From contig JABTUS010000005.1 of assembly GCA_015075305.1 (NCBI GenBank), positions 1-64,000 of the forward strand: a stretch of 64,000 nt of DNA, given 5' to 3'. Source of the DNA: Opitutaceae bacterium. Lineage in GTDB: Bacteria > Verrucomicrobiota > Verrucomicrobiia > Opitutales > Opitutaceae. Positions 43,069-46,266 of this stretch are shown one piece after another (the first letter of the stretch is position 1; each line of letters starts with the position of its first letter). Below the pieces are notes generated by a model. That model had not been told where the DNA came from and made no database searches. It saw only the letters and a list, made by a program, of their open reading frames with translations. Both the position numbers and the translations under genes were made by a program.

Positions 43069-46000
43069 TCACGCCGCCCAGTCGGCGCAGAGCAGGGCGG
43101 CTTGGGCCAACACCTCCTGCACGGCGGCTTCCTGCATGTCCGGCGGGTAGCCAAAGCGCTTGAGGATGCGCTTCACCAAGACGCGGATCTTTGCCCGGGC
43201 ACCTTCACGCAGAGTCCAGTCAACGGTCACGCTCCGCCTGACTTGCGTCACGAGTTCGGTGGCGATCACCCGCAACTTGGCGTCGCCCATGACCTGCACG
43301 GCGCTCTCGTTGGCCGCCAAGGCGTCATAAAAGGCGATTTCCTCGTCGCTGAGGCCGAGCGCGACGCCGCGCTGGTCGGCTGCTGTGAGCTGCTTCGCCA
43401 GCTTGATGAGCTCCTCGATCACTTCCATCGTGCCAATGGCGCGGTTGTGGTAGGCGTTGAGGGTCTTTTTAAGCTTCTCGCTGAAGAGCTGGCTCTGCAC
43501 GAGGTTTCGTTTCGCACGCACTTTGAGTTCGTCCCGGAGCAGTTTCTGCAGCAGCTCGGCGGCGACATTCTTGTATTTCAGGCCGCGCACCTCGGCGAGA
43601 AAGCTGTCGCTCAGGATGGAAATGTCCGGCTTGGGCAATCCGGCGGCGGTGAAGACATCAATCACCTGACCTTCAGTGGTGATTGCCTTGCTCACAAGCT
43701 GGCGGATCGCGGCGTCTATTTGTTCGGGAGTCCTTTGGGTATGGGCGCTCCGTTTGTTGAGGGCGGCTTGTAGGGCCTGAAAGAAGCTCACGTCGTCTCG
43801 GATTTCCGTGGCCTCATCGCTGGCAGCGCACAGGGCAAAAGCACGGGAAAGCTCGGTGACGACCTGATTCCAACGCGCCTTACCGTCCTCCTGTTCGAGG
43901 ATGTGTTCTTGTCCCGCAGGGATGAGTTGCAGGCGTTCCGGCGGAGTGCCTGTCGTCCACTTGACCCAGGAAAAGCCATGCAGCATGGCACCGGCGATGC
44001 CGTGCTTTTCCATCATGATGGCGATGGCCTGTTTGGTGTCGTAGGTCGGATCGCCCCTGCCGCCGCTTTCCGCGTAATCGGCGAGCGCGCGTTTGAGTTG
44101 GTCGGCCAGCCCGAGATAGTCGACCACCAGCCCGCCCGGCTTGTCGCGGAAGACGCGGTTCACACGGGCGATGGCCTGCATGAGGCCGTGGCCCTGCATC
44201 GGCTTGTCGGCATACATCGTGTGCAGGCAGGGCGCGTCGAAGCCGGTCAGCCACATGTCACGCACGATCACGATGCGGAACGGGTCTTTGCTGTCCTTGA
44301 AGCGGTTCGCCATCGCGCGGCGCTTCTCCTTGTTGCGGATGTGCGGCTGCCACTCGGGGCCATCATCGGCACTGCCGGTCATGATGACCTTCACCACGCA
44401 GGCCTTGCCCTTCTCCGCTTCCACATCGTCGTCCTTCGCGCTGGCCCAGTCCGGCCGCAGCTTGATGAGCGCCACGTAAAGGTCCACGCAGATGCGGCGG
44501 CTCATGCAGACCACCATCGCCTTGCCGTCCATGGCTTCCGTGCGCTTCTCAAAATGCGCCACCAGATCGGCGGCAATGAGCGCGAGACGCTTCGGGTCGC
44601 CCACCAGAGCCTCCAGCGCGGCCCACTTGGTCTTGAGCTTCTCCTTCTTGGTCAGTTCCTCGCCTTCCGTGATCTCCTCAAACTCCGCGTCGAGCTTCGG
44701 CAGCTCGCTGGCGTTCAGGCCCAGCTTGGCAATGCGGCTCTCGTAGTAGATCGGCACCGTGGCCTTGTCGCCGACGGCGCGCTGGATGTCGTAGATGGAA
44801 ATATAATCGCCAAACACCGCCCGCGTGTTGGCGTCCGTCTTCTCGATGGGCGTGCCGGTGAAGCCGATGAAGCTCGCGTTCGGCAAGGCATCGCGCATGT
44901 GCCGGGCGAGACCGTCAATGAGATCGTATTGGGAACGGTGCGCTTCGTCGGCGATCACGATGATGTTCCTGCGCCCGCTCAGGCACGGCATCTTCTCGCC
45001 CTTCTCGGGGAGAAACTTCTGGATAGTGGTGAAGACCACGCCGCCGCTCGCCACGGTCAGCAACTCACGCAGCTTGTCACGACTCGCCGCCTGCACCGGG
45101 GTTTGCCCGAGAACGTCATGGCAGCGCTGGAACTGGCCGAAAAGCTGGTCGTCGAGGTCGTTGCGGTCGGTCAGCACCACCAGCGTCGGGTTCTGCATCG
45201 CGGGCTCGCGGATCACGCGGGCAGCGAAGAAGAGCATGGTGAGGCTCTTGCCGCTGCCCTGCGTATGCCAGACCACGCCCGCGCGACGGTCGCCCGGTTT
45301 GCCGCCGTGCATTTTCCCGGCCCAGTGACGGCCCGGCGGTTCCTCGCGCAGCATGCTGCTCTCGCTCATGCCGCTGGCACGCACCGTTTCCTCGATGGCT
45401 GCGTTCACCGCGTGGAACTGATGGTAGCCCGCGATGATCTTGTGAATGGCTCCCGTGTCCGGGTTCTCCTCGAAGACGATGAAATGTAGCAGCAGCTTGA
45501 GGAAGCGTTCCTTCTCGAAGACGCCGCAGATGAGCGTTTGCAGTTCGAGCGTGGCCTTGCTCCCTCTCGCGCTGGGAGAGGGCTGGGGTGAGGGTGGAGG
45601 GAAATCGGCATCGATTTCCCTCCATACCTTGAACCACTCCTGGTTCGCCGTCAGCGATCCCATGCGGGCTTGCAGACCGTCGCTCACCACCAGCGTGGCG
45701 TTGTAGGCGAGCAGGCTGGGAATCTCCGCCTTGTAGGTTTGCAGTTGGGCGTAGGCGCTCCAGATCGTCGCGTCCTCATCGGCGGCGTTCTTCAGCTCGA
45801 TCAAGGCCAGCGGCAGGCCGTTGATGAACACGACGATGTCCGGCCGCCGGTTGTGCCGGCCTTCGATGACCGTGAACTGGTTCACCGCCAGCCAATCGTT
45901 CGCCTTCACGTCGGAGAAATCCACCAGCCAGACCTTGTCGTGCTTCGTGCTGCCATCGGGCCGGGCGTATTCGACATCCACCCCGTCGCGCAGCATCCGG

Positions 46001-46266
46001 TGAAAGGCCCGGTTCGTCCGCACCAGCGACGGCGTTCCCACGCGCAGCACCTTCCGCAGGGCCTCCTCCCGCGTTTCCTCGGGAATGGCGGGATTCAACT
46101 GCCGCAACGCCTCACGCAGTCGCCCCACCAGCACCACCTCGCCGTAGGACTCCCTCTCCTCGTGGGAGAGGGTAGGGGTGAGGGCTTCTGCCCCAAGGCA
46201 GGAGTAGCCCAGCTCCCCGAACCACGCCAGGGCGGCGTGTTCGACGATGGATTCGGTGAGGCTCAT
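43069..46266 (-). CDS. hsdR: type I restriction enzyme R subunit
   Basis: This is the DNA-translocating and cutting subunit. The 1065-residue protein has a nuclease domain with PD-ExK motif ([20 protein letters not shown]), then a superfamily 2 helicase: [14 protein letters not shown] (motif I), [10 protein letters not shown] (II), [10 protein letters not shown] (III) and [10 protein letters not shown] (VI). A C-terminal helical region contacts the methylase. Two in-frame runs look foreign: LTPTLSHE near residue 28-35 and [15 protein letters not shown] near residue 218-232. Both coincide with copies of a palindromic repeat at the DNA level (46150-46184, 45560-45594) and lie in loops, so the protein may still work. 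It is the last gene of the island and ends 15 bases from tRNA-Asp. Confidence 0.95.
45560..45594 (-). repeat. palindromic repeat inside hsdR (copy 1)
   Basis: CTCCCTCTC followed by GGGAGAGGG then TGGGGTGAGGG: a 7-base inverted repeat with a conserved flank. Related copies are at 46150-46184, 48560-48591, 49518-49549 and 49646-49677. This one is read in frame and encodes the Pro/Ser-rich run [13 protein letters not shown]. Confidence 0.8.
46150..46184 (-). repeat. palindromic repeat inside hsdR (copy 2)
   Basis: Same family and orientation as the copy at 45560-45594, differing by a few bases. It is read in frame near the N-terminus of HsdR and encodes LTPTLSHEE, a peptide that recurs in unrelated bacterial proteins wherever this kind of repeat lands. 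Confidence 0.8.

Follow-up and report, generated by a model that had tools for sequence, protein, structure and literature searches.

The hsdR gene of a type I restriction-modification (RM) operon in the window, which is the whole analysed stretch of 64,000 nucleotides of Opitutaceae DNA, carries two in-frame copies of a palindrome, one of which (site B) is an insertion and, among the copies compared, most resembles the left ends of cassettes that hold a DUF559 gene inside hsdR genes of other genomes. According to the reading preferred here, with an estimated probability of about 0.55, palindrome and DUF559 form a mobile family, site B is a solo or non-autonomous copy of it that arrived with the RM operon, and copying proceeds by nuclease action and repair.

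Palindrome copies in the RM operon

The features of the operon and its surroundings are (window coordinates):

42978..43054, plus strand: tRNA-Asp gene, 14 bases from the hsdR end; possible insertion site of an RM island
43069..46266, minus strand: hsdR, type I restriction subunit, 1065 aa (Pfam HSDR_N, SWI2_SNF2, T1R_D3-like, T1RH-like_C; PADLOC REase_I)
45560..45594, minus strand: palindrome site B; net insertion of 11 aa; among known copies, it is nearest to left ends of DUF559 cassettes that lie in frame
45595..45624, no strand: perfect 13-bp inverted repeat with a 4-base loop, abutting site B
46150..46184, minus strand: palindrome site A; takes the place of a conserved HsdR segment of equal length and encodes P31, E37 and R38
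47124..48506, minus strand: hsdS, specificity subunit (Pfam Methylase_S; PADLOC Specificity_I)
48504..48692, minus strand: hsdM 3′-end relic upstream of hsdS, from sequence comparison with the C-termini of HsdM homologues
48560..48587, plus strand: palindrome copy, shorter variant, in frame in this hsdM 3′-end relic
49462..49714, minus strand: hsdM 3′-end relic downstream of the first PF05635 gene, from the same comparison
49518..49545, plus strand: palindrome copy in the second hsdM 3′-end relic, in a 175-bp duplicate that is 97% identical to the block at 48504-48678
49646..49673, plus strand: palindrome copy, in frame in a relic whose start is further upstream in hsdM
50177..51928, minus strand: hsdM, type I methyltransferase (Pfam HsdM_N, N6_Mtase; PADLOC MTase_I)

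The first-pass annotation had located both 35-base copies correctly and had read them in frame in HsdR, which was confirmed. They are 83% identical to each other and have the same orientation, yet the element is read in two different reading frames. Site A corresponds to HsdR residues 28-39 and site B to residues 225-236, i.e., 12 aa each, and the hairpin arms measure 8 bp at site A (46152-46172) and 7 bp at site B (45562-45582). Three additional copies had been placed between the genes of the operon. These copies exist, but they are in frame within duplicated relics of the hsdM 3′ end: the C-terminal sequence of HsdM homologues recurs in both relics, around the second of two PF05635-like genes.

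The PF05635 (23S rRNA IVP-like) genes between hsdM and hsdS have GAAGAGTGAAAAGTGAAATTGG-type repeats on their flanks, and an inverted pair of this repeat also lies within hsdS (47786-47874, 48799-49464 and 49799-50167). These repeat-flanked genes are perhaps a second kind of cassette in RM operons. The gene between hsdS and hsdR (46477-47127) matched the PADLOC candidate family PDC-M04, and DUF3800 at the cut-off.

Comparison with HsdR homologues

In total, 80 HsdR homologues from Verrucomicrobia, proteobacteria, Planctomycetes, Acidobacteria, cyanobacteria and others, 73-83% identical to the HsdR of the window in tblastn, were aligned to it. Both palindromes had been thought to add peptides to the protein, and this holds for site B only. 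The site B peptide, a net gain of 11 residues, is found in the window and in none of the 80 homologues, which makes it a true insertion. The adjoining 13-bp inverted repeat has the look of flanking codons that were duplicated in inverted orientation during insertion, and could be the scar of a template switch in this event.

Site A is an equal-length replacement instead. The window, L006 and L011 share the replacement segment at the same offset, most other homologues have a AVGHGPHLAPGEPAAERDSF-like segment of equal length, L010 has a version that is six residues shorter, and L042 has SCLGAE without a clear palindrome. P31, E37 and R38 are invariant across 41 aligned sequences, four of them with the element at site A, and since these residues lie inside site A, the palindrome codons supply conserved residues. 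The proposed location of both peptides in loops is hinted at by a structure model of HsdR, poor overall (mean pLDDT 60, pTM 0.38), in which both segments are mostly coil with a pLDDT <50.

Copies in the host genome

The host genome (4.87 Mb in 17 contigs, 97.6% complete) was searched with the pattern CCCTCACCCN{1,4}CCTCTCC, resulting in five matches, all of them at 45.57-49.67 kb of contig 5, versus zero matches for the reversed pattern. Matches of a stricter pattern, CCCTCACCCNNNCCCTCTCCC, were confined to hsdR. With up to three mismatches allowed, the palindrome was matched twice, versus a mean of 0.17 in shuffled sequences (2 of 100 shuffles reached two matches). The suggested higher density in the operon than in the rest of the window was therefore an understatement, as the genome has no copy beyond the five. 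For the same reason, spread of the repeat within this genome was rejected: the first-pass annotation had named a genome lacking additional copies as grounds for refutation, and this is the case here, with five copies, all in the RM operon. The proposed spread into a single operon is thus unsupported, and site A is furthermore common to two other species. In the palindromes of the window, no Rfam match was found up to E = 1. An unusually low number of stop codons was also considered for the palindrome and is unsupported (4.57 open frames versus 4.89 in shuffles).

Chance resemblance of G + C-rich codons to a palindrome, or a mis-joined contig, would account for these observations with very low probability. 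An assembly in 17 contigs leaves room for such an artefact, but the counts exceed those of the shuffles and the reversed-pattern controls, the contig has a length of 415 kb, and site A was found in two other assemblies.

The palindromes probably reached the genome together with the RM operon. This is suggested by the restriction of all five copies to the operon, the proximity of the tRNA-Asp gene, a best HsdR match from the host's own family in the sample (G125) of 77% identity, and the outcome of the PF04480 (DUF559) search of the window's genome, which gave no match and left solo palindromes only. Base composition was also considered; it shows no clear departure in the operon (0.59-0.64 at 42-52 kb versus 0.60-0.65 elsewhere, with 0.50 in the first bin).

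Distribution of the palindrome in other genomes

In the 79 genomes holding the 80 homologues, 529 copies were counted in approximately 384 Mb. The first count covered half of the homologue-bearing genomes, including all element-bearing loci, and a later count added the remainder. While many genomes have zero copies, G031 (166), G014 (85) and G020 (68) are copy-rich with many inverted pairs, so that high copy number in inverted pairs is true of other genomes and not of the window's genome with its five. The insertion at site B and the up to 166 copies per genome elsewhere support the earlier suggestion of a mobile palindrome family in coding DNA that leaves the frame unbroken.

The 80 hsd loci contain eight copies in seven loci, every one in hsdR or hsdR-like DNA. 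Four are in hsdR frames (L006, L010, L011, L062), one is at the hsdR 5′ end of L034, which is interrupted by an IS110-type gene, and three are in hsdR 5′ fragments (L039, L062 and, as a short stretch only, L043). For one 3.3-kb hsdR per genome 0.30 copies are expected, a rough comparison in that L006 and L011 share their copy by descent and similarity to the window determined how the loci were ranked. Among the 30 genomes with one to five copies, five (G001, G005, G006, G022, G025) have a copy in the hsdR region examined and 25 have their copies outside of it; the assumption that the copies of low-copy genomes are mostly in RM genes was therefore dropped. Beyond this set, all copies of G052 (1/1) and G055 (2/2) are in hsdR genes.

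At L034 (3056-4614), the IS110-type transposase gene (PF01548, PF02371) interrupts the hsdR 5′ end at the palindrome copy. Fragments of the hsdR 5′ end of approximately 60-180 codons were observed upstream of a full hsdR at L013, L039, L041, L043, L046, L050, L082 and L119. They resemble the hsdM-tail duplications of the window, and some bear the palindrome.

For G031, 20 regions were chosen non-randomly from the listed places, and 21 of the 42 copies examined in them are located within ORFs of at least 200 aa. All nine palindrome ORFs that were scanned match Pfam families, including UvrA-type, sensor-kinase, FtsX and HsdM proteins. In-frame residence is thus not special to hsdR in a copy-rich genome. 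In the UvrA-type gene (L098:2999-3034), the palindrome is in frame between an AQRVKL-type signature and EEPTIGLH.

DUF559 cassettes inside host genes

An excerpt of PMC12907096 classes a Caulobacter DUF559 protein as Vsr-like and within the PD-(D/E)XK superfamily. A PF04480 match was obtained for 13 of 22 chosen genomes and for 82 of 387 genomes of the host's phylum. In G052 (L123/L238), a complete DUF559 domain comes after the hsdR palindrome, then a second palindrome in inverted orientation, and the frame is kept throughout. This arrangement is named here the palindrome-DUF559 cassette; site B of the window has the palindromic end, without the DUF559 gene.

Cassettes were found in seven HsdR proteins with HSDR_N, SWI2_SNF2 and T1R_D3-like domains (L234-L239 and L250; T1RH-like_C is present in the first five, and the C-terminus of L250 is beyond the available stretch). 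In these, DUF559 is placed either within the ATPase or ahead of it, after HSDR_N. Further hosts are a truncated HsdR (L246), the HsdM proteins of L240-L242 and L252, truncated or internally deleted HsdM proteins (L244, L245) and an MmeI-like enzyme (L243). Outside of RM systems, DUF559 is in frame in an asparagine synthase (L251) and an L,D-transpeptidase (L262). Type I RM genes account for 11 of 27 DUF559 matches with E <1e-20 in the phylum sample, and in two of these 11 the frame is truncated or deleted. No DUF559 within an RM gene was found in two annotated plasmid neighbourhoods of DUF559.

The insertion positions recur. Aligned to the window, the L234-L236 cassettes occupy exactly the site B loop. 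The L238 cassette, at a position occupied by a solo palindrome in L062, separates TTIQKF from the DEAH motif, and that of L239 follows TTIHKF. The cassettes of L237 and L246 precede the Walker A motif. In HsdM, those of L240-L242 are between LWF and FIDAR, and in L245 and L252 the position is farther along, ahead of the CKSA motif. Target residues at the cassette sites are replaced rather than cleanly split; untidy replacement of this kind, at sites A and C, points to copying by repair instead of clean transposition.

Where the hosts are distant, the cassettes are more alike than their hosts: L238 and L239 share 54% identity in the cassettes versus 33% in the hosts, and HsdR-HsdM cassette pairs reach up to 68%. 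For L234-L236, the cassettes (49-80%) are less alike than the hosts (76-87%); thus, their cassettes at site B may go back to a single inherited event. Of 77 DUF559 loci, 12 have a YRGG-type N-terminal extension (YRGGF.FSGL-like), a motif defined post hoc from sequences already seen, and each of these 12 lies within HsdR or HsdM. The 77 loci are those of 81 that passed the tblastn cut, with L148 and L269 being the same place. The RM cassettes of L243, L245 and L252 do not have the extension.

Alternatively, DUF559 could be a useful nuclease domain that RM enzymes acquired by fusion and that selection maintained. The palindromes would then be linkers, and the solo palindrome of the window a linker without nuclease. 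The intact appearance of DUF559 in most hosts and its location in type I RM genes in 11 of the 27 strong phylum matches agree with this. However, the domain is found in several different loops and in two non-RM hosts, at least two hosts are truncated or deleted (L244, L245, L246), and palindromes are present at the DNA level on both ends. Insertion therefore fits better than domain design, and fusion under selection is considered improbable.

Inteins and homing endonuclease genes place a nuclease coding sequence in frame in a host gene at recurring conserved positions, and the DUF559 cassettes are likewise in frame at recurring positions. In contrast to inteins, the cassettes are bounded by palindromes, no intein or Hint family was detected by Pfam scans (E <= 0.001) of 17 cassette-bearing host proteins, and the domain would stay in the protein.

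Repeats flanking DUF559 genes

Inverted flank matches (score >=14), mostly palindromic repeats, were detected at 35 of 44 DUF559 loci versus 0 of 500 random windows, and at 13 of 25 DUF559 loci of a Pseudomonadota sample; the remaining 9 and 12 loci, respectively, are below the threshold. The 44 loci comprise 19 of 28 from the search of 22 genomes, omitting L159, L160, L166 and L170-L175 as weak, of another subfamily or at a contig end, and 25 of 28 new loci from the phylum search, omitting L201-L203. The flanking repeats vary in sequence from one DUF559 gene to another. PF05635 loci of the phylum sample failed as a neutral control, because 15 of 30 have their own, different inverted repeats on both flanks, and random windows were used instead. 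Repeat flanks are thus not unique to DUF559. At Y1_Tnp loci, inverted flank matches were found in 4 of 11 cases.

Possible mobilisation of the palindromes by other enzymes

The palindromes could also be ordinary intragenic REP- or RPE-type elements that owe their movement to a REP-associated tyrosine transposase or some other enzyme, with DUF559 as a frequent neighbour or passenger. RM genes would then bear copies because insertions in loops are tolerated and because RM genes travel.

Rickettsia palindromic elements (RPE) are palindromes inserted in frame into protein genes, and site B, with its 11 additional residues relative to 80 homologues, is a comparable in-frame insertion. To our knowledge, RPE are unrelated in sequence, and we know of no nuclease cassette form.

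Excerpts of PMC3733652 name the Rickettsia elements and describe GTAG/CGTC-tagged REPs, including REPs of the verrucomicrobium Opitutus terrae and of uvrA, as short palindromes that often form inverted pairs and of which some are wholly intragenic and translated. The palindromes analysed here share these properties, and the copy in the UvrA-type gene of L098 parallels the uvrA REPs of these excerpts. Together with UvrA-like and other G031 genes that bear the palindrome in frame, this speaks for REP- or RPE-type elements, as do Y1_Tnp genes in 14 of 14 genomes searched. Palindrome copy number, moreover, does not track DUF559, since G020 is copy-rich without a PF04480 match, and most copies in other genomes have no known DUF559 nearby.

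In an excerpt of PMC8266576, TnpA-REP (RAYT) together with its REP is termed a REPtron. The cassettes resemble it in that a single-domain nuclease gene lies between inverted palindromes, with many non-autonomous copies elsewhere. They differ in their enzyme, which is the Vsr-like DUF559 and not an HuH enzyme or tyrosine transposase, and in full units that are in frame inside genes. The palindrome adjoins the Y1 gene at none of 12 Y1_Tnp loci of these genomes; at L092 it is present only in the next gene, hsdR. The Y1 transposase (RAYT) was rejected as mobiliser for this reason. Furthermore, no GTAG or CGTC tag was seen by eye at the hairpins of the 42 G031 copies and the five copies of the window, and the palindromes that bound in-frame DUF559 domains in unrelated RM genes are left unexplained. 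REP- or RPE-type elements with DUF559 as a bystander are accordingly regarded as an unlikely explanation.

In L010 (1-837), a Y1-transposase gene adjoins hsdR and follows a tandem array of another repeat; this gene was set aside as mobiliser.

Relation of site B to the cassettes and proposed mechanism

Site B was compared with a non-random sample of 115 distinct copies, among which the left ends of the HsdR cassettes L237, L239 and L238 are closest, with alignment scores over 43 bases of 35, 33 and 33, followed by 27 for the next copy. Site B and these three left ends share the start CACCCTCACCCC and the end GAGAGGGAGCAA. On this basis, site B is interpreted as belonging to the YRGG-type cassette lineage, either as a solo end or as a non-autonomous copy, and it is possible that a full cassette was formerly present at the site.

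In the preferred reading of a mobile palindrome-DUF559 family, the palindromes would be REP-like elements of the form X-nn-X-loop-X′ (X about CCCTCWCCC), and full members would have two inverted palindromes with a DUF559 nuclease gene in the middle. The lineage with the YRGGF.FSGL-like extension was encountered in type I RM genes alone, always in frame. Site A would belong to the same palindrome family, having replaced native sequence and now encoding three invariant residues. The Vsr-like nuclease is presumed to cut the palindromic end or a look-alike target, repair of the break would copy the whole cassette, or the end alone, into the site, and copies that keep the frame would survive selection. 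Both the mobility of the cassettes and the nuclease action of DUF559 are deduced from sequence. The stronger version, namely that a new class of selfish, palindrome-bounded DUF559 cassette homes in frame and without splicing into conserved loops of RM proteins, moves with the RM genes from one bacterium to another and leaves behind solo palindromes by which HsdR loops are recoded, as in the window, is put forward tentatively and is somewhat less probable than not.

DUF559 would be a candidate enzyme for a widespread palindrome family for which none was named in the literature searched; among the open-access matches listed, neither a link between DUF559 and palindromes nor such cassettes in RM genes were found. 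Nuclease genes would reside in frame inside restriction genes, in recurring loops and without splicing, and peptides of restriction proteins such as PSPQPSPRGRG would be explained as insertions at the DNA level. In genomes with copies in RM genes only, the palindrome may be a footprint of the travel of RM systems. If the nuclease acts on the palindrome, this would be a second, non-HuH route for REP-like spread, which is directly testable.
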